Positions 4,008-32,262 of a stretch of 32,262 nt of DNA are shown here, piece by piece. Each line of letters begins with the position of its first letter. Within the stretch, counting starts at the first letter, position 1. The stretch covers positions 1-32,262 of the forward strand of contig DATJFP010000023.1 in NCBI GenBank assembly GCA_035495615.1, given 5' to 3'. Source of the stretch: Verrucomicrobiia bacterium. GTDB taxonomy: Bacteria; Omnitrophota; Omnitrophia; Omnitrophales; Aquincolibacteriaceae. Under the pieces are notes generated by a model, which had not been told where the DNA came from, did not search any database, and was given only the letters and a program-made list of their open reading frames with translations. A program made the translations under genes and the position numbers.

Positions 4008-4661
4008 TCAGGGATTCCCTGCATCCGGACGCGTCCCTTTCTCGAAAAGAAACGGCGGAAACCCCAGGCTGACTTCGGTTCCGTCCCGGGCGAGTTCGTA
4101 GCTTCCGCCGAGAAGCTCCATGCGTTTCTGAATTCCGGCCAGCGACGGGTCCTCGCGCAAATCCCCGCGGGCTTCGGCACGGATCGTGAGCCGCAGCCCG
4201 CGGTCCATCTTCAGCCGCATTTGAACGCTTCCGGCGCTCGCGCCGCGGGAAGCCTTGCCCGCCAGAAACTCCTGGATCCCGCGCACGATGAACGCGCCGA
4301 TGTCTTCGGGAACCGCGCGGTCTTTCCCTTCGAAGCGCAGCCCGACTTTCACGCGGTATTGCTCGCCCGCCCAGTCCGCAAGCCACTCGAGCGCCGGCCT
4401 GAGGCCGCTTTCGAATCCGAGCGGCGGGCTCAATTCCACCGACAGGCGCCGCGACTGCTGGAGCGCGTCGTCCACGATCTTGGCTATTTTTTTCAAGCCC
4501 TCGTCCTTGCGTTTCGCGGATTGCGTTTCCAGCATGATCTTGGCGGCGACGAGGTTCTGCTGGAGCGTGTCGTGAAGGTAGCGGGAAACGCGGTAACGCT
4601 CCTCGCGTTCCAGTCCGAGAAATTCACGGCTGACCTTATTTTCCTTGGGGACCGCCTTCAT
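4008..4661 (-). CDS. HisKA_3-type sensor histidine kinase-like protein with degenerate ATPase domain
   Basis: A 217-residue soluble protein. The dimerisation/phosphoacceptor part is clear: EREERYRVSRYLHDTLQQNL, with His30 in the H-D-x-L-Q-Q context of NarX/DegS-type kinases. The later part resembles a HATPase_c fold and ends with GIQKRMELLGG and a TEVSLGFP strand. However, the N-box position reads EFLAGKASRGASAG where an Asn is expected (E-A-L-x-N), and no D-x-G-x-G motif is visible before GIQKRM. It may therefore be a phosphotransfer scaffold or pseudokinase rather than an active kinase. There is no sensor or membrane domain. Its start overlaps the stop of the preceding receiver gene (ATGA, 4658-4661), implying translational coupling and a functional pair. 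Confidence 0.8.
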   Translation of the reverse strand: MKAVPKENKVSREFLGLEREERYRVSRYLHDTLQQNLVAAKIMLETQSAKRKDEGLKKIAKIVDDALQQSRRLSVELSPPLGFESGLRPALEWLADWAGEQYRVKVGLRFEGKDRAVPEDIGAFIVRGIQEFLAGKASRGASAGSVQMRLKMDRGLRLTIRAEARGDLREDPSLAGIQKRMELLGGSYELARDGTEVSLGFPPFLFEKGTRPDAGNP

Positions 4662-5134
4662 GCGCGCTGCAGGCCGGATGAAACCAGCCTTTTCCTTCCT
4701 TTCCTGACCCGGCGGCCGCGGGCCGCGGGCGGAACCGACGACAAGAGCCGTCTCATTTCGCTGCGGAGCTTGGCCAGGTCGAAGGGTTTTCCGAAAAGGG
4801 CGAAACGACCTTCCTGAGTGCCGTGCCGGGGCGGCAGCCCCTGCGCCAGGGCGCTCAAAAAAATCACGGGCACGGAAGAATCGAAACCGGAACGCAGGAG
4901 CTTTTCGTAATAGTCGGTGCCCAAACCGTCAGGCAGGACAATGTCCAGGATGATCAAATCCGGCCGCGACCGATGCGCCCGCCGCTGAAATTCGTGGCCG
5001 CTTTTTGCCGTGTCGACGCGGTATCCCTGCCCGGCAAAATGCTGCTTCAAAAATCTCAGGAGCGAGGATTCGTCGTCACAGATCAGGATTTTTTCCGCAC
5101 GTTTTTCTTGGGGAAGAGGGCGGCGGGTCGGCAT
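4658..5134 (-). CDS. Stand-alone response regulator receiver protein
   Basis: A 158-residue CheY-like protein without a DNA-binding domain. Residues 16-125 form a receiver: the acidic pair D20-D21 in ILICDDE, the phosphoacceptor D64 in PDLIILDIVLPDG, a Ser in VIFLSAL, and the conserved Lys in FGKPFD. The tail after residue 130 is short and basic (R/K-rich, x-GRRVRKGRKR) and may contact nucleic acid or a partner. The gene overlaps the following HisKA_3 protein by four bases and is preceded, six bases away, by a second receiver-like gene. The three probably form one signalling unit. Output must come from protein-protein contact or the neighbouring NarL-type regulator. Confidence 0.88.
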   Translation of the reverse strand: MPTRRPLPQEKRAEKILICDDESSLLRFLKQHFAGQGYRVDTAKSGHEFQRRAHRSRPDLIILDIVLPDGLGTDYYEKLLRSGFDSSVPVIFLSALAQGLPPRHGTQEGRFALFGKPFDLAKLRSEMRRLLSSVPPAARGRRVRKGRKRLVSSGLQRA

Positions 5135-5140
5135 GGACCG

Positions 5141-5575
5141 CTATTCCAGCGATAAGTGATAAGTGGCGGAAAGGGCGTCCCACAAACTCGTTCCGGCCGC
5201 GGCGGGCTCGCGCACGAGCCGCAGCTGGCGGCTCCTGCCCAGGGCTTCAGCGGCTTCTCCATACGAAAATTTTCCACTCCCGGGACAGACGAGGACTTCG
5301 TCCGCCTCGCACAGGGAAGCGCAGGAACGAAGGCTTTCTTTCCTTCCCGTGAGCAAAACGACCGGCACGCCGCCGTATTCCTGCCGCACGGCTTCCGCAA
5401 GGCCCGCGCAGAGAAAAAAAAGATCCGTGATCACGATATCGGGAAAGCCGCGGCCGTCCAGGCTGTCCTGCACTTCAAATCCTTCGGCTTTGAGAAACCG
5501 GCTTACCGATTCAAAAAAGCGGCCCGGCCCGAACAGGACAAGGGCTCGCGGCAAATTGTTCTCCGTCATTTCCAT
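5141..5575 (-). CDS. Degenerate receiver-like protein
   Basis: A 144-residue protein that follows the alpha/beta pattern of a response-regulator receiver: a first strand (ALVLFG), then PDIVITDLFF with a possible phosphoacceptor Asp, GVPVVLLTG, and ADEVLVCPGSGKF where the K-P loop should be. The acidic pair after strand 1 is absent (FGPGRFF instead of DD) and the Lys is not followed by Pro, so phosphorylation is doubtful. It may be a decoy or an atypical receiver acting through dimerisation. A G-rich ribosome site (GGGGGAA) lies just upstream of the ATG at 5575. It is the first gene of the three-gene signalling unit, with an element of the GTAGGGGAAA type about 95 bases upstream. Confidence 0.72.
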   Translation of the reverse strand: MEMTENNLPRALVLFGPGRFFESVSRFLKAEGFEVQDSLDGRGFPDIVITDLFFLCAGLAEAVRQEYGGVPVVLLTGRKESLRSCASLCEADEVLVCPGSGKFSYGEAAEALGRSRQLRLVREPAAAGTSLWDALSATYHLSLE

Positions 5576-5667
5576 GGCATTCCCCCATTGTGATAAAACA
5601 ACCTCGAAGGATTAGCAGAATATTATAAGTTGATGCTTTTCCGAATCGGGGAAAGGGAAATAGGGGT

Positions 5668-5680
5668 GTAGGGGAAAGGG
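5668..5680 (+). promoter_or_regulatory. Candidate operator, GTAGGGGAAA type
   Basis: GTAGGGGAAAGGG lies within a purine-rich intergenic stretch (5576-5786), about 93 bases upstream of the receiver-like gene. The same core GTAGGG(G)A occurs in other intergenic regions of the window (11503, and on the minus strand at 17271-17286 and 6704-6726). On the opposite strand it reads CCCCTACACCC, matching the minus strand of the site at 28435. Here the motif points away from the gene. Confidence 0.35.
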
Positions 5681-5786
5681 AAAGATCGAGGGGATTGCGG
5701 AGGATCCTCGGCGGATGGCCGGGAAATGCAGCTCCGCCCGGAACGCCTTGTTCCGGACGGATGAAGGGCCGTAATGCGGCGGGCCT

Positions 5787-6512
5787 TTACTTGCTCTGCA
5801 CCCAGTTCATCGCGAGGCGGATGAGTTCCATGTTGTTCTTCAAGTTCAGCTTGACCTTGATCCGGGCGCGGTAGGTCTCGATCGTCTTCATGCTGCGGTG
5901 AAGCTGTTTGGCGATGAGTGACGTGGAAGCGCCCTCGCCGATCATGCGGAAGACTTCGAGTTCGCGGTCGCTGAGCGCTTCGTAAGGCGAAGCGTCCACA
6001 GAAATGCCGCCGTACTTTTTCTCGAGGATGCGCTCCATCATGTGCTCGCTCAGGTAAACCTGGCCGCCCATGACGTGGCGGATGGCGTCCATGATTTTTT
6101 CCGTGGCTTCCTGCTTCATGATGTAACCCCGGGCACCTTCGCGCAGCGCGCGTTCGGCGTACAGGACTTCATCGTGCATGGAGAGGATGAGCGCCTTCAC
6201 ATCGGGAAAATTGATCTTCAGGGACTTGATGAACTCCAGGCCGCTCGAGCCGTCCAGCGAGATGTCCACGAGGATGACGTCGGGCTTTAGCTTTTCCACG
6301 GCCGCCATCGCGTCCTGGAAATTTTCGGCCTCCCCGCATACCGTCATGTCAGGCTCGTCATTGATGAGCTCGCCGATGCCCTGCCGGATAATCGGATGAT
6401 CATCCAAAATGAAAATACGGCTCTGCTTCGACGTAAGCGCAGGCTTTTGTTCTTTCTGAATCAAATTGTCTTCCGCGGGAACTTTGGTTTTCTTCAGCAT
6501 CGACGTAGCCAT
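5787..6512 (-). CDS. NarL/FixJ-family response regulator (receiver + LuxR-type HTH)
   Basis: A 241-residue transcription factor. After a 30-residue N-terminal extension comes a canonical receiver: RIFILDDHPIIRQG (acidic pair), PDVILVDISLDG (phosphoacceptor Asp), LILSMHDE (switch Ser) and GYIMKQEA (Lys). It is joined to a C-terminal GerE/LuxR helix-turn-helix (LSDRELEVFRMIGEGAS... IAKQLHRSMKTIETYRARIKVKLNLKN). Phosphorylation should promote dimerisation and binding to inverted-repeat DNA sites. The start is set by a strong ribosome site (AGGAGGAGG) seven bases upstream. It stands alone, 211 bases from the next minus-strand gene, and its own leader carries two inverted-repeat elements that may be autoregulatory. 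It is the best candidate in the window for the regulator that reads the repeated intergenic element; this link is inference only. Confidence 0.95.
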   Translation of the reverse strand: MATSMLKKTKVPAEDNLIQKEQKPALTSKQSRIFILDDHPIIRQGIGELINDEPDMTVCGEAENFQDAMAAVEKLKPDVILVDISLDGSSGLEFIKSLKINFPDVKALILSMHDEVLYAERALREGARGYIMKQEATEKIMDAIRHVMGGQVYLSEHMMERILEKKYGGISVDASPYEALSDRELEVFRMIGEGASTSLIAKQLHRSMKTIETYRARIKVKLNLKNNMELIRLAMNWVQSK

Positions 6513-6622
6513 TGGCCTCCTCCTAGAGAGAGATAAAAATTCATTCCGAATGGAGTCGAAATGGGGAACTTAATCTAGCTTTTGTTTCATCCCATTGTCA
6601 ACTGTTCTATTCTCTTCCGCCC

Positions 6623-6638
6623 TACCCCCGTAAGGGTG
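6623..6638. promoter_or_regulatory. Inverted repeat resembling a NarL 7-2-7 site
   Basis: TACCCCCGTAAGGGTG has two 7-base half-sites separated by two bases, the geometry known for E. coli NarL (TACYYMT-N2-AKRRGTA). It lies about 110 bases upstream of the NarL-type regulator start, so autoregulation is possible. The match is partial. Confidence 0.35.
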
Positions 6639-6703
6639 AGCAAAAGGTGGCTTATTGTCTCAGGAACTGGCGGTACGGGTATCGGGATTCTCCCCTTAAT
6701 CCT

Positions 6704-6726
6704 GTCAGAGTTTCCCTGATCCCCTA
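6704..6726. promoter_or_regulatory. Candidate operator (TCAGAGTTTCCCTGA plus CCCCTAC)
   Basis: The stretch holds an imperfect inverted repeat TCAGAG-TTT-CCCTGA followed directly by TCCCCTACAAG. On the minus strand it reads GTAGGGGATCAGGGAAACTC, combining both forms of the element seen at 17271, 19942, 28435, 5668 and 11503. It is about 190 bases upstream of the NarL-type regulator and ends just short of the TPR gene's stop codon. Confidence 0.4.
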
Positions 6727-6730
6727 CAAG

Positions 6731-7882
6731 TTAAGTTGTTGTTTGGCCTATAGTTATAGAATTCCTTTTGGCGGCCGGGACCACGGGAACGGCGGTTTCC
6801 GGCTTGAGGTACTTTTGCTTCAGAGCTTCGGCGTCCTGAAGGCGTCCGGAATCCTGGTACAGGGAAACGAGATTTGAGACGATCTGGCCGCCGAAAGGAT
6901 GGTCCTCTCCCATGGATTTGCGGGCGACGTCCAGCGCCTCCCGGAAAAGCTTTTCCGCTTCCTGCAGGCGGCCCTGCTGCTGGTATAAAAGCGCCCGGTT
7001 GTTGCGGACGCGGGCCACGTAGGGGTGATCGGCGCCCAGCGTGCGGACCCAGATTTCTTCGGCCTGCTTGTACAGGCTTTCCGCCTTTTCGAACTGGCCC
7101 TGCTTCTTATAAAGCCCTCCCATATTGTTGAGCAGGACCGCCAGCGAAGGATGGTTTTCACCGTAAGCCTCGCGGCGGATCGCGTAGGCTTCCCAGAACA
7201 TCTTGAGGGATTCGTCGATCCGGTTCTGCTCTTCATAAACAATGGCGAGATTGTTGAGTACTTTGGCGACGAGCGTCTGGCTTTCGCCGCTTTCGGTCCA
7301 GATGCGCAGCGCCTCGCGGTAGCATTCCTCGGCCTTGTCTTCTTCGCCGTGGATGCGGTAAAGGCCCGCGAGATTGTTCAGAGAAATCGCGGTCTCGGGA
7401 TGATCGGCGCCCAGCACCTTGAGGCGGATCTTCCACGCCTTGTGGGTCATGCGCAGCGCTTTTTTATATTCGCCCATATTTTCGTAGAGCAGCCCGAGGT
7501 TGCTGACCGCGGTCGCGTAAGAAGGATCTTCCTCCCCCGCCTTGTCTTTGCGGATGGCCATGACCTGCTTGAACATTTTTTCCGCTTCGGGATAGCGCCC
7601 TTTCAGCTGGAAAATCTTCGCGATATCTTCGAGCGTGTCGGCTTTGAGGAGAGGATCGTGGAGCTGGTGCGCGGATTTGAGGAGCGTGGAAGCGACGGAA
7701 AAAGCCTCGTCATAACGGCCTTCCTGATAAAGGGAAGCCAGCTTCATGCGGTCCAGGCTGACCTGGAGGGATTCGAAATCCTGCGAGAGAAAACTGAGAT
7801 TGGGGGGCAAAGGCTTGGATTCGGCATGGACGGGGGCGCAGAACGTGAGGGCCAAAAATAAAAAAAAGATGCTTGGGCGCAT
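6731..7882 (-). CDS. Secreted/periplasmic tetratricopeptide (kinesin-light-chain-type) repeat protein
   Basis: A 383-residue protein with a short signal peptide (hydrophobic core SIFFLFLALTF, cleavage likely after PVHA, residue 20). From about residue 60 to 360 it consists of TPR units of the 42-residue kinesin-light-chain type, with recurring features such as LNNLAGLYR, ALRIW, GADHP and GENHPSLAVLLNNMGGLY. Such repeats form a superhelical scaffold for protein binding. The C-terminal tail is basic (AAKRNSITIGQTTT). AAGGAGG lies upstream of the ATG at 7882. It is on the same strand as the beta-helix protein (stop at 8042), 159 bases downstream, so it could be co-expressed. An assembly role for the extracellular proteins or polysaccharide is plausible but not shown. 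Confidence 0.9.
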   Translation of the reverse strand: MRPSIFFLFLALTFCAPVHAESKPLPPNLSFLSQDFESLQVSLDRMKLASLYQEGRYDEAFSVASTLLKSAHQLHDPLLKADTLEDIAKIFQLKGRYPEAEKMFKQVMAIRKDKAGEEDPSYATAVSNLGLLYENMGEYKKALRMTHKAWKIRLKVLGADHPETAISLNNLAGLYRIHGEEDKAEECYREALRIWTESGESQTLVAKVLNNLAIVYEEQNRIDESLKMFWEAYAIRREAYGENHPSLAVLLNNMGGLYKKQGQFEKAESLYKQAEEIWVRTLGADHPYVARVRNNRALLYQQQGRLQEAEKLFREALDVARKSMGEDHPFGGQIVSNLVSLYQDSGRLQDAEALKQKYLKPETAVPVVPAAKRNSITIGQTTT

Positions 7883-8041: not shown

Positions 8042-11000
8042 TTAGTTCGCGATCGTGAACTGCACCGAAACGTTATGATCCCCCGTCGCGTCGGTCAGGA
8101 TCATCGACAGCGTGTACGTCCCGTTCGCGAGCTTGGTCGTATCGAGACCGCTCACGCCCGTGCCGGCCAAACCGCCCCACAGGAAAGGCGACGTGTACAC
8201 CTTGCCCGACTGCGCGCCGTTCAGGTAGTACGCGACCTTCCGCGCGGTGGGATATTTGGTGAGGTTCGGGCCGATGCTCGACACCCCGCTCACCGTGCCT
8301 CCCGCGGTGACGCCCGTGAAATCCCCGGTCGTCGTGGGAGTCGGTGTCGGAGCCGGCGTCGTGCCGTTCGCCACCTTGAACGTGATCGTCGTCGTCTTGT
8401 CCACACCGTTCTGCGTGTAGGTCATGGCGAGCGAGTAGGTCCCGTTCGCAATCTTGGTCGTGTCAAAACCTCCCGTGCCCGTGCCGGACAGGCCGCCCCA
8501 CAAGAAAGGCGACGAGTACACCTTGCCCGACTTGGCTCCGTTCAGGTAATACGCGACCTTGGAAACCCCGGTCAGCTTCGTGAGGTTCGGGCCGATGTTG
8601 ACCGTTCCCGTCACGCTCTGTCCGTCCGTCACGCCCACGAAATCCGTGGTCGGCGGAGGCGTGACCGTGTTGTTGACCGTGAACTGCGTCTGCACGGTCT
8701 TCGTGGTCGTCCCCGTGGTGAGGACAGCCTGAAGCGTGTACGTGCCATTCGGGATTTTCGTCGTGTCAAATCCCGCCGCTCCCGTTCCCGTGGTGCCGCC
8801 CCAGTAGAAAGGCGAAACCGTGGACGTGCCGGAGGCCGCGCCGTTCAGCGTGTAAACGGCCTTGGTCACGTTGGGATAGGTCGTCAGGTTGGGACCGATG
8901 TTGACCGTCCCGGTCACCGTGGCGCCGTTGGACACGCCGGAAAAATCGGGGCCCGGCGGAGGCGTTACGCCGTTCAGCACTTTGAAGGCCACTTGAACCG
9001 TGTGGTCGCCGGTGCTATCGGTGTAGGTGACGGAAAGCATATGGTCTCCATTGGGAATTTTGGTCGTGTCAAAACCCGTAGCGCCGGTGCCGGAAATGCC
9101 GCCCCAATAAAACGGGGACGTGTAGACCTTGCCGGACTGCGCGCCGTTCAGGTAGTACGCGACTTTTCTGACGTCGGGATGTTTCACGAGGTTCGGATTC
9201 ACGAGGATCGTGCCCGAAACCGTCTGGCCGTTGGTAAGGCCTGCGACGTCGCCGCTCGGCGGAGGATTCGTGGTGTTGTTCACGCTGAAATTGATCGTCT
9301 TCGTGCGCGTGCCCTGCGAATCCGTCAACGTGACCAGAAGCGCATGCGCGCCATTGGCGATCTTCGTCGTGTCAAACCCCGTGCTTCCGGTTCCCGCAGT
9401 GCCGCCCCAGTAAAAAGGCGAAACCGTGGAAGTTCCGGACGCCGAACCGTCGAGCGCGTAAACGACTTTCGTCACGCCCTTGTGCTGGGTGAGATCCGGG
9501 CCGACATTGATCGTGCCGTTCACCGTGGCGCCGCTGGCAAGACCGACCATCGTGACGGGCGTCACCGTCGTCGTGCTGCCGTATTCGTAAGCGCCGGCAT
9601 CGACGAGAGAACCCACCACGCGGGCATTGCCGTCCAGGTCCGTGCTCGAAATCGGAAAGCCGTTGCTGCCCGCTTCAAGCGCCGGGCTGGATCCGGTCAG
9701 GTGAAAATCCTTCCCGTCCCAGTCCACGAAGCCCGGGTTCGCCCACTGGCTCGTGCCGTTGATCGTAAAGCCGGGATTCGAGTGGCCCTGCCAATAGAAC
9801 GTGTTGTTGCTGTCGACCAGCGTGCCGCCGAGGTTCGTGTACATTTCGCCCGTCGTCTTCTTGCGCGCGATAACACAGTTCTCGAGCGTGACCTTGGAAG
9901 CGCCGCCGTCATTGTCCGCCTTGATGTCGAAGACGTCGTTGTCGACGAAGGTGGAATTGATGAACGTGACCGATCCCCTGCGGGCGTTCACGCCGTTGCC
10001 TTCGCCGGCAATCGGATCTTCGGCCAGGTAGCGCGCATTGCGGATAAGCGCGTTCTTGACCACGATGCTGGTGCCCCAGATCTTGAAGTTGTTCTTGTTG
10101 CCCCACACCTTGACGTTCTCGACGAGGACGTTGTTGGCCTTGATGTCAAAGCCGCCGTCCCAGTTGTCGTAGGACTCGATGTTGCGGAGCGTGATGTTGT
10201 TGCCGGCTTCGAGAATGAACCCGTCGCCGTTGCGGTACACGCTCTCGTAACCCGTGTAGATGTCCTTCGCGCCCGTCGACTTGATGTTCTCGAACAGGAT
10301 GTTGCTCGGCACGGTGCCGCCGTTGTTCTCGACGCGGAAGCCGTTGCGGCTGTTCGTGGCCACGACATTGCGGATCGTCACGTTCGTGGCGCTGTTGACC
10401 TTGACCGCGAAGTGGTTGTGGTCCGTGTTGAGTCCGTCGATGACGATGAACTGGCTGCCTGGGCTGACTTCGACCGCGTCGCGGGCATTCTTCACCGTCA
10501 AATTCTCGAAACGGATGTAGTCGCTGCCCTTGGTGTCGAAGATCGGCTCGTAGTCGTTCAGCGGATCGCCGTCGATCACGACGCCGTCTTCACCGCGGAT
10601 GGTAATGTAAGCGTCCGCGGTTCCGGACACCGTAATGTCGGCGGATTCCTGATACGTGCCGGCCTTGATGACGAGCGTGTCTCCCGCCTGGAGCGAAGAG
10701 ATCGCCTTCTGGAGGCTCTTATACGGGTTGTTCTGGTCACCGGCATTGGTGTCCGAACCCGTGGTGGCAACGTACAGCGTACGGCCGGTGGTCTCGGCTT
10801 GGACCGTCGGCGAGCTGAGAGGACTTGCCTGGAGGAACGAATCGGCGTTCGAAACGGTTTTCGCCGCCGTCGTCGTCTGCGTGGTCGTGTCCGCAGGAGC
10901 GTCCGCAGTCGTCGTCGGCTGCAGCGTGCCCAGCGGGTCTTGAGTGAGGGCAAGTTCCGAGGCCATGGCTTGGGGAAGGCCCGTCATGCCGAAGGCGACC

Positions 11001-11173
11001 GCGAGCGCGATCACGATTCGTAAGCCTTTGTACCCGGCCTGAGCCCGGTCCTTGAAACGCCGCATCACCTGCTGATAAGGCCTCAGCTTATACAGCAACG
11101 GCTGGATCTTTTCTTGGATCGAAGCGCTCTCGTCCTGAGAAACGGCCTCGTTGTTCTGGTTAGTGTTGTTCAT
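8042..11173 (-). CDS. Secreted right-handed parallel beta-helix protein with five tandem Ig-like repeats
   Basis: A 1043-residue exported protein. It starts with an unusually long hydrophilic N-region (about 50 residues), then a hydrophobic core LRIVIALAVAFGMTGLP and a likely cleavage after AMA (residue 72). A Thr/Ala-rich spacer follows. Residues about 130-530 form a parallel beta-helix: the entry motif GSDTNAGDQNNPYKSLQKA and GDTLVIKAGTY is that of DUF1565/pectate-lyase-like proteins. Rungs rich in N and V follow, and the cap DLDGNARVVGSLVDAGAYEY resembles the end of choice-of-anchor Q proteins. Residues 543-1043 are five repeats of about 92 residues sharing V-x-G-T-V-N-I-G-P-N-L, K-V-A-Y-Y-L-N-G, SPFxWGG and DTTKxxNGTY. 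No sorting signal is seen at the C-terminus. Possible polysaccharide lyase, epimerase or adhesin; no catalytic residues assigned. Confidence 0.92.
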   Translation of the reverse strand: MNNTNQNNEAVSQDESASIQEKIQPLLYKLRPYQQVMRRFKDRAQAGYKGLRIVIALAVAFGMTGLPQAMASELALTQDPLGTLQPTTTADAPADTTTQTTTAAKTVSNADSFLQASPLSSPTVQAETTGRTLYVATTGSDTNAGDQNNPYKSLQKAISSLQAGDTLVIKAGTYQESADITVSGTADAYITIRGEDGVVIDGDPLNDYEPIFDTKGSDYIRFENLTVKNARDAVEVSPGSQFIVIDGLNTDHNHFAVKVNSATNVTIRNVVATNSRNGFRVENNGGTVPSNILFENIKSTGAKDIYTGYESVYRNGDGFILEAGNNITLRNIESYDNWDGGFDIKANNVLVENVKVWGNKNNFKIWGTSIVVKNALIRNARYLAEDPIAGEGNGVNARRGSVTFINSTFVDNDVFDIKADNDGGASKVTLENCVIARKKTTGEMYTNLGGTLVDSNNTFYWQGHSNPGFTINGTSQWANPGFVDWDGKDFHLTGSSPALEAGSNGFPISSTDLDGNARVVGSLVDAGAYEYGSTTTVTPVTMVGLASGATVNGTINVGPDLTQHKGVTKVVYALDGSASGTSTVSPFYWGGTAGTGSTGFDTTKIANGAHALLVTLTDSQGTRTKTINFSVNNTTNPPPSGDVAGLTNGQTVSGTILVNPNLVKHPDVRKVAYYLNGAQSGKVYTSPFYWGGISGTGATGFDTTKIPNGDHMLSVTYTDSTGDHTVQVAFKVLNGVTPPPGPDFSGVSNGATVTGTVNIGPNLTTYPNVTKAVYTLNGAASGTSTVSPFYWGGTTGTGAAGFDTTKIPNGTYTLQAVLTTGTTTKTVQTQFTVNNTVTPPPTTDFVGVTDGQSVTGTVNIGPNLTKLTGVSKVAYYLNGAKSGKVYSSPFLWGGLSGTGTGGFDTTKIANGTYSLAMTYTQNGVDKTTTITFKVANGTTPAPTPTPTTTGDFTGVTAGGTVSGVSSIGPNLTKYPTARKVAYYLNGAQSGKVYTSPFLWGGLAGTGVSGLDTTKLANGTYTLSMILTDATGDHNVSVQFTIAN
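8045..9547 (-). repeat. Five tandem copies of a ~92-codon Ig-like module
   Basis: Within the beta-helix protein, residues 543-633, 643-734, 742-835, 844-937 and 951-1043 are copies of the same module, separated by short Pro/Thr linkers (PPPSG, PPPGP, PPPTT, APTPTPT). Copies 1 and 3 share the variant SGTSTVSPFYWGG. Copies 2, 4 and 5 share SGKVYxSPFxWGG. This alternation suggests duplication in blocks. The repeat has a period of about 300 bases in the DNA. Confidence 0.88.
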
Positions 11174-11667
11174 TGCGTCTCCTTTTTTTTTCAGCGGATC
11201 TAGGAGAACGCCGCAGCTACGATGAGGACAACGTGCGATATGAAGTTGCGTATTATAGAGGGGACCGCAATTTCTAAGCGTTACCCGGGCTTACAGCATC
11301 CTCGGTTAATTTCGCTTCAAAATTTCGGTTTGAATTATTCGGCTCTTGCGATTCCCACGGGGTGGGCACGATAGGCAGGCTCTCAAACTCGAATCACTCA
11401 GCGCGGAATGTAGTGCTTAGTCAATTCCCGCTGTCGGTAAAAACCTTAACACCCTTGTCGTCTGAGCGCAAGCTTTTATTTAGGAAAAACACTTAGCGGC
11501 TTGTAGGGGAAAGGAGCTAAAACATTGTAGGAAAATGTCTTGAACGGCAAAAAAAATTTTGCTTCCTCAGGGCATTCAGGGGGAAAAATTCTTCTTTTGC
11601 CCGATATCCGCTTCCGGATTTCAAAATTAGAATGACGCCACTTTGTGCAATCACCCTTGGAGGCTCT
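11174..11667. other. Divergent intergenic region between two secreted-protein genes
   Basis: This 494-base gap separates the divergently transcribed beta-helix gene (start 11173) and modular secreted protein gene (start 11668), so it must hold promoters for both. It is clearly more AT-rich than the flanking genes. Visible elements are GTAGGGGAAAGG at 11503-11514, a short inverted repeat ACATT-N6-AATGT nearby, and a small hairpin ATCCG-CTTC-CGGAT near 11604-11617. I see no RNA gene and no convincing ORF; an open frame at 11476-11748 runs antisense into the start of the plus-strand gene and has no ribosome site I can support. Confidence 0.6.
11503..11514 (+). promoter_or_regulatory. Candidate operator, GTAGGGGAAA type
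   Basis: TTGTAGGGGAAAGGAGC lies about 155 bases upstream of the plus-strand secreted protein gene, pointing towards it. The core GTAGGGGAAAGG is shared with the site at 5668. TTGTAGGGGA is also present on the minus strand at 6717-6728. Confidence 0.38.
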
Positions 11668-14085
11668 ATGAAAAATGCAGCATTGAAAAAGTTTTTTATA
11701 TTCTTGTCGTTGGTTTCTTTCCTTTCCTCCCCCTACGGTTTTGCCCAAGTCGTCCCTCCGGCCCAGGAACCGGGTGCCCAGCAGGAAACCACCACGCCTA
11801 CGGTCACGGCTCAGGAAGCGGGTACTCCGAGTACCACGAACACTTCGGCCGGGACTTCGGACGATTCGTCGGATAATTTCATGGCGGAAGGGCCGCTTTC
11901 AACGGCGACCCCTGAGGATACAGGCACTTCAAGCTCTTCGACGACGACTTCGACAACCACGGCATCGGCCTCCCCGTCTTCGCAGGCCGCGCAAAACAAC
12001 GGACCCCTGTCGCCCGCTACTCCGGAAGAGCCTGCGGTCACGGCCCAGGCCGACGAAGCTTCGACTTCGAACGTCACCGTGCTGCCGGGACGCCCCAATC
12101 TGGCCTCCTTTGCCAATGCCGGTACGGTCACGATCGCGCAAACTTCCGGCTCGGAATTCCAGACGCAGTTCAGCTTCGAAAACCAGGACAGCTTCGGCGG
12201 CTCGATTATTACCTATGAAGGCACGACCGCGGGGTCCGGGGATTTGAGCGCAATCCAGAATTTTGATTTCGATGTCAAACTGGAAGGCGCCAACTGCACG
12301 TCGCCGACCTGCCTCAAAGTCGAATTCCTGGACACGGCGGGTAATCTTGCCGCGCTTCCCGTCAACGCCAACATCAACAGCACGTTCAGCCCGCTTCAGA
12401 TCACGCAGGCCCAGATCAAGGCCGCAAACGCGGACGTGAATCTGGCCTCCATCAAACAGATCAATTTCGTGCTGGAGGCGCGCAACTACGATGCCGCGGC
12501 CGGAACGCTGACGGTGCGCGCCGGAGGGCTTTCCTTTACTCCGACGGTCACGGGCGCGGGTGCGGTAACAGCCGAAGCCTTGCCCGGCTCCCCCGTCTTT
12601 TCGAGTTTCGAGAACCAGAGCACGGGCACGATCCAGACGATTTCGCCGAGCCAGTTCCGTTACGATTATGATTTGTCGACGGCCGGCAGCTTCAGCGGGC
12701 CCATCATCAATTACATGGACACGCCGGCGGGATCCCAGGATTTCTCCACGGCCGAGAGCCTCCAATTTAATATCCGCACCAACAATCAATGCGCGTCCTC
12801 GAAATGCCTGAAAATCGAAGTCCAGGACACGGCCGGGCAAACCGCGCTCGTGAACGTCCAGGGACTCAGCCAGGACTTTAAATCCGTCACGCTTCCCAAG
12901 AGCCTGCTCCTGGAAGCCAATTCCAGCTTGAACCTCGCCGCCATCCGGCAGATTAATTTCGTGCTGGAAGAAGGCAACACCATGCCCAAAGTGGGATTTC
13001 TCGAAGTTCAGACGGGTCCGACGGGCGCTGCGCCGAATCCCAACCCGAATCCTAATCCAAATCCAAATCCTAACCCGAATCCGGAGCCCAATCCGAATCC
13101 CGAGCCGAACCCGAATCCGCAGCCCACGTCAGGCCTTTTGACGGGCATCGCGGAGGGACAGACGGTCAGCGGTGTGATCACGGTCCAGCCCGCGCCTTCG
13201 GTCGTAGAAGCCGGCATCAAGAAAGCCGCTTACTATCTTAATGGCACCAAAGCCGGAAAGGCCTACGACGCTCCCTTTGCGCTCGGCGGCAGCGGCGGCC
13301 TGGACACGTCTAAGCTCGCCGACGGCACTTACACCCTGAGCGGCTATGTGACGAACGCGCAGGGAGAGGACGAGCCGTTTTCGGTGACCTTCACGGTGAA
13401 CAACGGCAATACAAATGCGGCGGCGGGAGAAGCTCAGGAAGCCGACGGCGCTGATATCACAGGCCTCGCGGACGGCCAAAGCGTTTCCGGCTCCGTCACC
13501 GTGAAACCGGATTTGACCAAGCAGCCTGCGATCCACAAGGTGTTTTATTATCTGGATGGCACCCTGCTGGAAAAGAAGTACGAATCCCCGTTCGAAACCA
13601 CGATCAATACGACGGATCTTACGGACGGACCGCACACCCTGACCGGCCTCTACACGATTTCGGACGGTGATGACAATTTGTTTTCTTCACTGGACCGGAC
13701 GTTCAGCATCGATTTCACCGTGGATAACGGCGCGCCCGTCAGTGCCGCCGAAGTTTCCGGCGATACGTCCGCCCATGCGGGCTTGACCGTTCCGGGCCAT
13801 TTGGCGGATCAGGAAAATAACGGCACGGGTACGGAAGGGACCTCTCTCACCGGAACCGAAGCCGGCAATGACACGAACCTCGAAACGTCCGGATCTTCGA
13901 CCGGCACGAGCACCGAAACCGGCGCCGCGGCCGACGGAACGACCGGGACCTCCGCCGATACGGGGACGGGAACTTCGACCGGAACCTCGACGGACACCAC
14001 CGGAGCAGGCACGATTGCCGCGGGCAATCCTTCCGCCACGCCCACGGCTCCGGCCGGAACAACGACGACTCCCACGACGGTTTAA
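11668..14085 (+). CDS. Secreted modular protein: two jelly-roll-like modules, PN linker, two Ig-like modules, Thr/Ser-rich tail
   Basis: An 805-residue exported protein. The start at 11668 is set by GGAGG six bases upstream and by the signal peptide that follows at once (ALKKFFIFLSLVSFLSS, cleavage near GFAQ). Residues 27-137 are low-complexity Thr/Ser/Ala. Residues about 138-298 and 304-450 are two copies of a roughly 150-residue beta-rich module (LPGxPxxxSF..., a Cys pair with CLKxE, xIxQINFVLE), probably a carbohydrate-binding-like jelly roll. Residues 456-486 are an Asn-Pro linker. Residues about 490-580 and 594-690 are two copies of the Ig-like module also found five times in the divergent neighbour (KAAYYLNG, DTSKLADGTYTL). 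The last 110 residues are Gly/Thr/Ser-rich. Likely an extracellular matrix or surface polysaccharide-binding protein. No sortase or autotransporter signal is seen. Confidence 0.9.
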   Translation: MKNAALKKFFIFLSLVSFLSSPYGFAQVVPPAQEPGAQQETTTPTVTAQEAGTPSTTNTSAGTSDDSSDNFMAEGPLSTATPEDTGTSSSSTTTSTTTASASPSSQAAQNNGPLSPATPEEPAVTAQADEASTSNVTVLPGRPNLASFANAGTVTIAQTSGSEFQTQFSFENQDSFGGSIITYEGTTAGSGDLSAIQNFDFDVKLEGANCTSPTCLKVEFLDTAGNLAALPVNANINSTFSPLQITQAQIKAANADVNLASIKQINFVLEARNYDAAAGTLTVRAGGLSFTPTVTGAGAVTAEALPGSPVFSSFENQSTGTIQTISPSQFRYDYDLSTAGSFSGPIINYMDTPAGSQDFSTAESLQFNIRTNNQCASSKCLKIEVQDTAGQTALVNVQGLSQDFKSVTLPKSLLLEANSSLNLAAIRQINFVLEEGNTMPKVGFLEVQTGPTGAAPNPNPNPNPNPNPNPNPEPNPNPEPNPNPQPTSGLLTGIAEGQTVSGVITVQPAPSVVEAGIKKAAYYLNGTKAGKAYDAPFALGGSGGLDTSKLADGTYTLSGYVTNAQGEDEPFSVTFTVNNGNTNAAAGEAQEADGADITGLADGQSVSGSVTVKPDLTKQPAIHKVFYYLDGTLLEKKYESPFETTINTTDLTDGPHTLTGLYTISDGDDNLFSSLDRTFSIDFTVDNGAPVSAAEVSGDTSAHAGLTVPGHLADQENNGTGTEGTSLTGTEAGNDTNLETSGSSTGTSTETGAAADGTTGTSADTGTGTSTGTSTDTTGAGTIAAGNPSATPTAPAGTTTTPTTV
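13033..13128 (+). repeat. Asn-Pro dipeptide linker repeat
   Basis: About 16 codon pairs encode Asn-Pro or Glu-Pro (PNPNPNPEPNPNPEP type). The codons alternate (aat/aac, ccg/cca/cct/ccc), so it is a selected peptide linker rather than a recent DNA slippage product. It joins the jelly-roll pair to the Ig-like pair. Confidence 0.85.
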
Positions 14086-17270: not shown

Positions 17271-17286
17271 GTAGGGTTTTCCCTAC
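17271..17286. promoter_or_regulatory. Candidate operator: inverted repeat GTAGGG-TTTT-CCCTAC
   Basis: Six-base perfect arms around a TTTT centre, overlapping the stop codon of the sugar-1-phosphate transferase and about 130 bases upstream of the GT2-like gene. It is the most symmetric of several AGGGTTTTCCCT-type elements in the window (also 19942-19956 and 28435-28451). On the minus strand it contains GTAGGGAAAA, linking it to the GTAGGGGAAA sites. It could also form a 6-bp hairpin. Confidence 0.5.
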
Positions 17287-18692
17287 TTTCCATCTCCGGC
17301 AATGACGGCATGGACTGTCTGGAAAAGGATTTTCATGTCCATCCAAATGGACCACTGGTCGATGTAGCGCAAATCGAGTCCCATCCATTCTTCGAAGCCG
17401 ATGGAGTTGCGGCCCGAGACCTGCCAGATGCACGTGATGCCCGGCTTCATGGACAAACGACGGCGCTGCCAGGGCTCGTATTGCGAGACCTCCGTGGGCA
17501 GGGGCGGCCGCGGGCCGACGATGCTCATGTCCCCTTTCAGCACGTTCCAGAACTGGGGAAATTCGTCCAGGCTCGTCTTCCTCAGAAAACTTCCCACTTC
17601 CGTGATGCGCGGATCCTTGGTCATCTTGAACACGGGCCCGCTCATCTCGTTTTTCTCTTTCAGGTCCTTGAGCATGTCCTCGGCATTGACCACCATGGTC
17701 CGGAATTTATAGAGCGTAAACGGCTTGCCATTTTTTCCGCACCGGACCTGCTTGAAAAAAACGGGGCCCGACGACCTGAGTTTGATGGCGAGCGCCACGA
17801 TCGCGAGGATGGGGGCGCTGATAGCCAGGGCCGTGGCGGCAAGAAAGACGTCGAAGAAGCGCTTGATCACCAGTTCCCCCTCTTTCAAAAGACGCGTCTC
17901 GAAAGTAAGGTAGGTCATCCCGTCCAGGTTTTTGGGGATCCTCCGCGCGATCTCGATGTCGAAAAGGTCCGTGGACACGGTCGCGGGAACGCCCACGGCC
18001 TCGCAATACGCGACGTATTTGCTGATTTCTTCCAGCCATTTGCGCGGCGTGATAAAAAAAACCTCGTCGACGTTTTTCTTTTCGAGAAGGTCGGGAAGGT
18101 CTTCCAGCGTTCCGACCACGTTGTAACCGGCCACGTTCTCTCCGGTGAACATGGGCTCGCGGTCGATCAGGCCCACGACGCGGTAGCCCCATTCCCGGTG
18201 GCGTGCCAGGTGGCTCAGGAATTTCTGCGCGCGCCGGCCGGTGCCCACCACAACGATGTCCTTGAGGTTGTAGCCTTTTTCCCGGGCGCGGCGCGCCATG
18301 AAGACCGCCAGCCCCCGGGTGAAGATGAGCAGCATCGTGCTGCTGCCGACGTACGCCAGGATGAAAAAGCGGCTCAAAAATTCGAATTTGAGAAGGAAAG
18401 CAAGGCTCGCAAAAAGCCCCAGGAAGATGACGCAATCGCACAGCAGGTTCAAGAACACGATGCGCCAGCCCTGGACGCGGAGATGGCGGTAGCCGTCACG
18501 CGTCCACAGCAGCACGCTCCAGATCAGGAACACCGTCCAAAACACCTGGTAGTAGAGATAAAGCGGCCGCAATCCGTGCACGATCTGCGCCGAATGGAAC
18601 AGGTCCAGAGAATAATGCGACAGGACGTAGTAAACGAGGAAGAAATTCAGAGAAACAAGAGCGAGTTCGACGGCATAAAGAATTTTTCTCAT
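17283..18692 (-). CDS. Polyprenyl-phosphate sugar-1-phosphate transferase (WbaP/WcaJ-type priming enzyme)
   Basis: A 469-residue integral membrane protein that transfers a hexose-1-phosphate to undecaprenyl phosphate and so starts the repeat unit. The N-terminus has four to five membrane helices. The middle has a nucleotide-binding-like fold (IVVVGTGRRAQKFL, VVGLIDREP). The C-terminal catalytic domain is complete: KRFFDVFLAATAL, FKQVRCGKNGKPFTLYKFRTM, LRKTSLDEFPQFWNVLKGDMSIVGPRPP and KPGITCIWQVSGR. I chose the start at 18692, whose ATG overlaps the TGA of the preceding GT4 gene (ATGA), over a frame extension to 18749 that lies inside that gene. Donor sugar is often glucose or galactose in this family; it cannot be fixed here. 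Confidence 0.95.
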   Translation of the reverse strand: MRKILYAVELALVSLNFFLVYYVLSHYSLDLFHSAQIVHGLRPLYLYYQVFWTVFLIWSVLLWTRDGYRHLRVQGWRIVFLNLLCDCVIFLGLFASLAFLLKFEFLSRFFILAYVGSSTMLLIFTRGLAVFMARRAREKGYNLKDIVVVGTGRRAQKFLSHLARHREWGYRVVGLIDREPMFTGENVAGYNVVGTLEDLPDLLEKKNVDEVFFITPRKWLEEISKYVAYCEAVGVPATVSTDLFDIEIARRIPKNLDGMTYLTFETRLLKEGELVIKRFFDVFLAATALAISAPILAIVALAIKLRSSGPVFFKQVRCGKNGKPFTLYKFRTMVVNAEDMLKDLKEKNEMSGPVFKMTKDPRITEVGSFLRKTSLDEFPQFWNVLKGDMSIVGPRPPLPTEVSQYEPWQRRRLSMKPGITCIWQVSGRNSIGFEEWMGLDLRYIDQWSIWMDMKILFQTVHAVIAGDGK

Positions 18693-19941: not shown

Positions 19942-19956
19942 AAGGGTTTTCCCTGA
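19942..19956. promoter_or_regulatory. Candidate operator: AAGGGTTTTCCCTGA
   Basis: Inverted repeat AGGG-TTTT-CCCT in the gap upstream of the GT4 gene, about 135 bases before its start. The spacing is nearly the same as that of the 17271 site to its gene (about 130). Both sites also have CACTTGT some 20 bases to the left on the plus strand. Confidence 0.48.
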
Positions 19957-28434: not shown

Positions 28435-28451
28435 GTAGGGGTTTTCCTGAC
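28435..28451. promoter_or_regulatory. Candidate operator: GTAGGGGTTTTCCTGAC
   Basis: Located about 215 bases upstream of the first EPS operon gene, in a 298-base gap (28221-28518) that is AT-rich and must hold the main operon promoter. It matches the elements at 17271 and 19942 (GGGTTTTCC core shared exactly). On the minus strand it reads AACCCCTACACCC, close to the site at 5668. Confidence 0.48.
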
Positions 28452-28518: not shown

Positions 28519-28779
28519 TTACGCGCACCGGCGGATTTTTTTGATTTTCTTGGGATCTTTTTCCCTCGGCTCCGCGTCCGCGATTTTCGCGACCTTCACG
28601 GCTTTGGGCCCTTTCGGGGTCTGCTCGATCTCGAACTCCACGGTATCTCCCCGTTTCAAGGTCTTATAGCCCTCCACCTGGATCTCAGAAAAGTGCACGA
28701 AAAATTCCTGCTCGTCTTCCGAAAGAACGAACCCATACTTCATCGTGTTGTTGAACCATTTGACGGTGCCTTTAGCCAT
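28519..28779 (-). CDS. Cold-shock-domain protein (CspA family) with basic tail
   Basis: An 86-residue single-stranded nucleic-acid-binding protein. The cold-shock domain (residues 1-66) begins MAKGTVKWFNN. It has a modified RNP1 (KYGFVL instead of GYGFI) and RNP2 FFVHFS, then YKTLKRGDTVEFEIEQTPKGPKAVKV. About 20 extra residues form a basic, Lys/Arg-rich tail (EKDPKKIKKIRR) ending in Cys-Ala. Its role is RNA chaperone or transcription antiterminator. AGAGGGG precedes the ATG at 28779. It lies only ten bases after the stop of the pyruvyl transferase gene, so it may be co-transcribed with the modification genes and read ahead of the EPS operon. Confidence 0.93.
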   Translation of the reverse strand: MAKGTVKWFNNTMKYGFVLSEDEQEFFVHFSEIQVEGYKTLKRGDTVEFEIEQTPKGPKAVKVAKIADAEPREKDPKKIKKIRRCA

Positions 28780-32037: not shown

Positions 32038-32262
32038 GACGACGAGAACAATTTGACAACTCGTCGTCATGCGGTGAGGACATGATTCAAGGCCTCACCG
32101 CTTTTTTTGATAATTGAACTCATGGTTTGGCACGGTGAAGCCCAGAAGCATGGCTTCACCTGGTGACGGCGAGATTGATAATTGGGCTCGCCTTAATCAC
32201 GGTGAAGCCCAGAAGCTTGGCTTCACCTGGTGACGGCGAGATTGATAATTGGGCTCGCCTTA
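32038..32262. repeat. Array of hairpin repeats (67-base unit and a divergent copy), continues past the window
   Basis: A 67-base unit occurs at 32131-32197 and again at 32198-32262 (cut by the window end), differing at one base (agcat/agctt). Each unit has two inverted repeats: GGTGAAGCC with GGCTTCACC (9 bp, 9-base loop) and GGCGAG with CTCGCC (6 bp, 13-base loop). Upstream lies a divergent version: GACGACGAG / CTCGTCGTC (32038-32046, 32060-32068) and GCGGTGAGG / CCTCACCGC (32071-32079, 32093-32101), the latter followed by TTTTTTT like a terminator. Loops share the AT-rich TTGATAATTG type. There is no ORF and the array does not look like CRISPR (no unique spacers). It lies upstream of the minus-strand PP-loop gene. 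Confidence 0.8.
32071..32108 (+). terminator. Hairpin followed by T-run within the repeat array
   Basis: GCGGTGAGG and CCTCACCGC form a 9-bp perfect stem with a 13-base loop, followed directly by seven T. On the plus strand this has the form of a Rho-independent terminator, but no plus-strand gene ends nearby in the window. It may end a transcript arising in the gap, or be just one member of the hairpin array. Confidence 0.45.

Follow-up and report, generated by a model that had tools for sequence, protein, structure and literature searches.

What is the short repeated sequence that lies between the exopolysaccharide (EPS) genes of this Omnitrophota genome, and which protein might read it? 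The window, that is, the whole stretch of 32,262 nucleotides that was analysed, corresponds to contig C23, one of 106 contigs that make up a genome of 3.16 Mb (3,160,476 bases; genome label G000). Its minus strand carries a series of export and assembly genes, encoding a BBP2_2 beta-barrel protein, a Poly_export/SLBB (Wza-like) protein, a Wzz/tyrosine-kinase-like protein, a flippase and a Wzy_C-type ligase or polymerase, as well as genes for glycosyltransferases, for a sugar transferase (Bac_transf) and for a sugar epimerase. A divergent gene pair at 8042-14085 encodes two large secreted proteins (Big_7), and at 4008-7882 a NarL-type regulator gene is grouped with a histidine-kinase-like gene and with genes for a TPR protein and for receivers.

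The original prediction had described four similar palindromes in this locus. The three main ones (17271-17286, 19942-19956 and 28435-28451) are present with exactly the predicted sequences and coordinates (Table 1). The looser fourth one is also present, slightly displaced from the 6704-6726 given for it, with TCAGAGTTTCCCTGA at 6705-6719 and CCCCTAC at 6721-6727. All four lie between genes, except that the site at 17271, the only main site touching a gene, reaches into the stop codon of the gene for the sugar transferase (17283-18692). The distances to the next minus-strand start, predicted to be about 130, 135, 215 and 190 bases, were measured as 128 bases for the site at 17271 (upstream of the GT2 gene), 134 for 19941 (upstream of the family 4/group 1 glycosyltransferase gene), 214 for 28435 (upstream of the beta-barrel gene that heads the export genes) and 192 for 6705. 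The last of these precedes the NarL-type regulator gene, for which autoregulation is possible. The half-sites at 5668, 11480, 11503 and 11527 are additional to those first listed, the last three being spaced by 23 and 24 bases between the divergent secreted-protein genes.

Table 1. Repeat elements of the window, with the candidate regulator and the genes next to the main sites.
Feature	Start	End	Strand	Basis
Inverted repeat GTAGGGTTTTCCCTAC (YAGG-N6-CCTR)	17271	17286	.	Read from sequence
Inverted repeat GAAGGGTTTTCCCTGA (AAGGGTTTTCCCTGA at 19942-19956)	19941	19956	.	Read from sequence
Inverted repeat GTAGGGGTTTTCCTGAC	28435	28451	.	Read from sequence; 16-mer search
Half-sites TTTCCCTGA and CCCCTAC	6705	6727	.	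Sequence; half-site lists
Three direct-repeat half-sites: TTAGGAAAA (11480), GTAGGGGAA (11503), GTAGGAAAA (11527)	11480	11535	+	Half-site lists
Half-site GTAGGGGAA	5668	5676	+	92 bases before gene 5141-5575
NarL/FixJ-type response regulator, proposed binder	5787	6512	-	Pfam PF00072 (receiver) and PF00196 (GerE/LuxR HTH)
GT2-type glycosyltransferase	16177	17142	-	Pfam PF00535
Glycosyltransferase (family 4/group 1)	18689	19807	-	Pfam; 63% identical orthologue in G025
Beta-barrel outer-membrane protein (BBP2_2), first export gene	26949	28220	-	Pfam PF10082

The sites are real, but the term palindrome fits them less well than that of half-sites arranged as inverted or direct pairs. The half-site is KYAGGRRAA, with arms GTAGGG or TCAGGG, and single copies occur alongside inverted repeats, in which 6 bases separate the arms, and direct repeats with a spacing of 23-24 bases. 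The 3.4 kb of intergenic DNA in the window contain 8 copies, compared with 9 in 38.4 kb of intergenic and 77 in 443 kb of coding DNA elsewhere in the genome, as delimited by a home-made gene caller; this density, about 10 times higher than in other intergenic or coding DNA, is partly circular because the window sites were already known when the pattern was drawn up, and its wording was fixed after inspection of both this locus and that of the relative G025 discussed below. With regard to pairing, inverted half-sites in the set of EPS and NarL loci peak at AGG-N6-CCT, with 9 pairs, a peak that the background does not show; other spacings reached 5 pairs at N7, 5 at N15 and 0-4 at the rest. A trinucleotide dyad analysis did not single out AGG-N6-CCT, and this dyad taken alone did not reach significance. 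Half-sites in direct orientation 23-24 bases apart are present at 11480/11503/11527 (window), at 7413/7437 (G025) and also in G241, a genome of another family. The corresponding pattern KYAGGRRAA-N13-16-KYAGGRR occurs at 7 places genome-wide, as opposed to 1 in the control; two of these are the window set and one lies on contig C101 beside a palindromic site. As is typical of NarL/FixJ-type operators, half-sites of about 7-9 bases are thus paired at fixed spacing, albeit in small numbers, and regulators of this family are encoded nearby (5787-6512 in the window, and two genes beside the EPS genes of G025).

Could such a cluster of similar words be a coincidence? By our own estimate, repeated 12-mers are to be expected in 32 kb. 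The exact 12-mer AGGGTTTTCCCT has 2 copies in the 3,160,476 bases, both in the window, and its one-mismatch copies number 20 genome-wide as compared with 27 in a reversed control; therefore, the 12-mer itself is no genome-wide repeat. Against a chance origin, which appears quite improbable, stand the replication of the enrichment and the conservation of position in G025. This member of the same family, the only relative compared with an orthologous locus and the sole independent test, has a syntenic EPS cluster (GenBank PLLJ01000023, a MAG) that lies between two NarL-type genes, one of them 65% identical to that of the window. The 312-base gap before its orthologous glycosyltransferase holds GTAGGAAAAAGCCTGA, about 125 bases upstream of the start, an instance of the positional conservation whose absence the original prediction had named as refuting it. 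Other EPS gaps of this genome contain TTTTCCCTGAC, TTCCCTGATAC, CCCCTACA and a paired GTAGGAAATCACCCTAC. In total, the G025 EPS gaps hold 7 copies of KYAGGRRAA, where 0.78 would be expected at the frequency seen in the intergenic sample of this genome (p = 1.5e-4), a test that is close to independent because G025 lay outside the data behind the original prediction. Furthermore, when the 8-mers common to both loci were ranked with no prior motif, TGTAGGGT came first, with TTGTAGGG, TGTCAGGA, TCAGGGAG and CAGGGAAA within the first 14; after correction for 1322 words, itself our estimate, TGTAGGGT alone is only borderline.

At a genome-wide level, the palindromic 16-mer KYAGGRWWWWYCCTRM with at most one mismatch has 29 sites, as opposed to 10 in the control, and the site at 17271 is one of only 2 zero-mismatch matches in the whole genome. 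According to the simple gene caller, 12 of the 29 are intergenic, a share that AT-rich gaps inflate somewhat, while intergenic DNA makes up 8.1% of the sampled bases. Outside the window, intergenic sites precede a small gene on C20, lie between a beta-helix-like and a small gene on C50, where the site adjoins a NarL paralogue, and precede a PRC-barrel gene (C101), a lipoprotein gene beside Hsp20 and MscL (C14) and others; some of these outlying sites are surely due to chance. The wide regulon that had been anticipated, to be recovered by a matrix search of the genome, did not emerge: in 504 kb sampled without bias, the density of PWM matches between genes was not above that inside genes, and half-sites elsewhere in the genome are as rare between genes as within them. 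In G025, the 16-mer pattern with at most one mismatch has 22 sites, versus 19 in the control; both matches in the EPS locus are intergenic, and 18 of the 19 examined elsewhere lie inside genes. The element is therefore a mark of the EPS locus and not of an extensive regulon. Across 58 relatives, the exact 16-mer pattern occurs at control level in most genomes. The site on C101 (locus L185, 3745-3783), ATAGGGAATTCCCTGAAACGCCGCTTCCATTTCCCCTGA, combines a palindrome with a direct repeat at 23 bases and lies 133 bases upstream of the PRC-barrel gene, for which no homologue was found in 11 relatives.

The element is found before or beside NarL-type genes at five loci, namely in the window, in G025, on contigs C50 and C87 of the same genome, and in G241, the last three having been examined partly because of their motif or NarL match. 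In G025, half-sites precede the 65% identical NarL gene; AAGGGAAAAAGCCTGAT lies before the paralogue on C50, and TCAGGGAAAGACCTGA and TAAGGCAATAGCCTGA lie beside that on C87. In G241, the element in the leader of a histidine kinase-NarL operon is one of only 7 matches genome-wide. The recognition helix, S(V/M)KT(V/I)E.YR, is nearly invariant among the regulators of these loci. At homologous glycosyltransferase loci of other families, most of them in genomes without so close a NarL gene, the half-site occurs only 2 times in 13.1 kb of intergenic DNA. The genome with the closest NarL orthologue (G014, 76%) has no clean site before that gene. In G004, TCAGGAAAAACCTGA lies before a NarL gene, but it belongs to a longer hairpin resembling a terminator and was left out of the supporting evidence. 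The link of the element to a NarL-type regulator is thus one of association, not proof, for which the circumstantial evidence is good.

The C50 locus (L135, 1-12217), which carries the same operator word, encodes, besides the NarL paralogue, a beta-helix-like protein and a long kinase in which HAMP-like units are repeated, and it contains a diguanylate-cyclase-like gene. In G241, contig C64 (L206) carries the direct repeats TTTCCCCGATGG/TTTCCCTGATTG at 8700-8760 and TTTCCCTGATGG/TTGCCCTGATTG at 10697-10735, each 24 bases apart, before the kinase-NarL operon and a secreted-protein gene.

The operators might instead be read by another protein, be it a regulator of the OmpR or a different type, or a NarL paralogue encoded on C50, C87 or C21. 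The genome encodes several such paralogues with a near-identical recognition helix, and some outlying sites lie near OmpR-type regulators (C101 and C104). Direct repeats about two helical turns apart are common for OmpR-type proteins too. Nevertheless, the recurrence before or beside NarL-type genes at five loci, and the 6-base-spaced YAGG/CCTR, which is the register of RcsB, make a different reader rather unlikely.

Two further explanations place the element in the transcript or in the promoter. As an RNA element, the inverted repeats would form hairpins acting as an attenuator, a terminator or an RNA-protein site, and the site at 17271 can indeed form a 6-bp stem with an AAAA loop. However, the folding of the four sites is similar to that of shuffled sequences (z = -1.03, 0.37, 0.43 and -1.78), no T tract follows them, no Rfam match was obtained, the orientation of the half-sites to the gene is mixed and most copies are unpaired. 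The stable, consistently oriented stem expected of an RNA hairpin regulator is not seen, and this explanation is extremely improbable. Alternatively, the half-site could be the -35 or -10 box of an alternative sigma factor. The 23-24-base direct repeats fit the distance between such boxes and the sites lie 60-215 bases upstream of starts, but both copies of the repeat are the same word and their orientation to the gene is mixed, which makes a sigma-factor element very improbable. No sigma-70-like promoter was recognised near the sites, a point against their being operators.

The half-sites KYAGGRRAA are therefore best regarded as probable operators for a dimeric NarL/FixJ-family regulator, most likely the product of 5787-6512, controlling the EPS locus. 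Of the original prediction, the operator of the EPS locus is upheld by the roughly 10-fold local enrichment, the replication in G025 and the site in the same gap, while the wide regulon is unsupported. The element probably acts as the docking site of a NarL-type switch. Following its phosphorylation, a step that we infer, the regulator would read half-sites with arms GTAGGG or TCAGGG, one dimer engaging either two inverted half-sites separated by 6 bases or direct pairs whose members lie about two turns of the helix apart. The head of the export operon (28435), two internal points (19941 and 17271), the promoters of the divergent secreted-protein genes (11480-11535) and the gene of the regulator itself (6705-6727) would be the points of control; regulator binding and the sign of control are our inference from the arrangement of sites and genes. 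Among known structures, those of DesR, NarL, DevR, VraR and RcsB match the regulator.

How does this putative operator compare with known ones? The NarL/NarP operator consists of the heptamer TACYYMT in a 7-2-7 arrangement. The window element resembles it in regulator family and in its inverted half-sites, but the word and the spacing differ, and the outer letters GTA...TAC are opposite to those of the NarL 7-2-7 site. The ops/JUMPstart element of EPS operons, GGCGGTAG, acts on the non-template strand in a single orientation. It shares with the window element the GTAG and the position before EPS genes; the latter is mixed in orientation and lacks the GGCG part, and an ops-type reading was rejected.

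A closer likeness is found in enterobacteria, whose RcsAB box is TaAGaatatTCcta (PMC4325325) and where the RcsB half-site TTAGGAA is contacted by K180 and S184 (PMC5829831). Like the window element, this box is a NarL/FixJ-family operator in front of exopolysaccharide genes; the element has its 14-base register, YARG-N6-CCTR, and TTAGGAA fits KYAGGRAA. Out of the 14 letters of the RcsAB consensus, the window sites match 9, 7 and 9 and the G025 site 9, and at least 9 are matched by 0.18% of background 14-mers. The regulator 5787-6512 aligns with RcsB over the recognition helix (RSMKTI/RSIKTI), with K180 kept and S184 replaced by T. On the other hand, the arms are AGGG/CCCT in the window and AAGA/TCCT in RcsAB, the window element also has direct repeats 23-24 bases apart, and the host phylum is unrelated. 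The regulator is only 30% identical to RcsB and closer to DesR, NarL, DevR and VraR, and is not an RcsB orthologue. The element thus resembles the RcsB/RcsAB box in register, half-site and EPS target, a resemblance and not membership.

Among the open-access papers searched, none was found that describes a regulon or operator for Omnitrophota. As a tentative possibility, these bacteria may use an operator similar to the RcsB box, with no RcsB orthologue involved, to control the EPS locus, by convergence or through an old NarL-family EPS code, with paralogues sharing one operator word across several envelope loci. This suggests that the RcsB-type code of EPS control could have a greater age, or arise anew more easily, than its occurrence in enterobacteria would lead one to expect. 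Moreover, Omnitrophota are mostly uncultured, and a conserved operator word with a named candidate regulator would offer a handle on the timing of slime and secreted-protein production.

Additional features of the locus were observed. The gene at 4008-4661 encodes a HisKA_3 histidine-kinase-like protein that has no sensor part and in which Pfam recognised no ATPase domain; genes for a stand-alone receiver (4658-5134) and for a receiver-like protein that has no Pfam match (5141-5575) lie in line with it. A cold-shock-domain gene heads the EPS export genes both in the window (28519-28779) and in G025 (L051:13718-13951), the operator-like site being downstream of this gene in the former and upstream in the latter. 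Finally, the contig end (32131-32262) holds a tandem pair of 65-base units, 98% identical, with a 67-base spacing and internal inverted repeats; the array is broken by the contig end, and part of the unit recurs, in diverged form, as a third copy at 32107.
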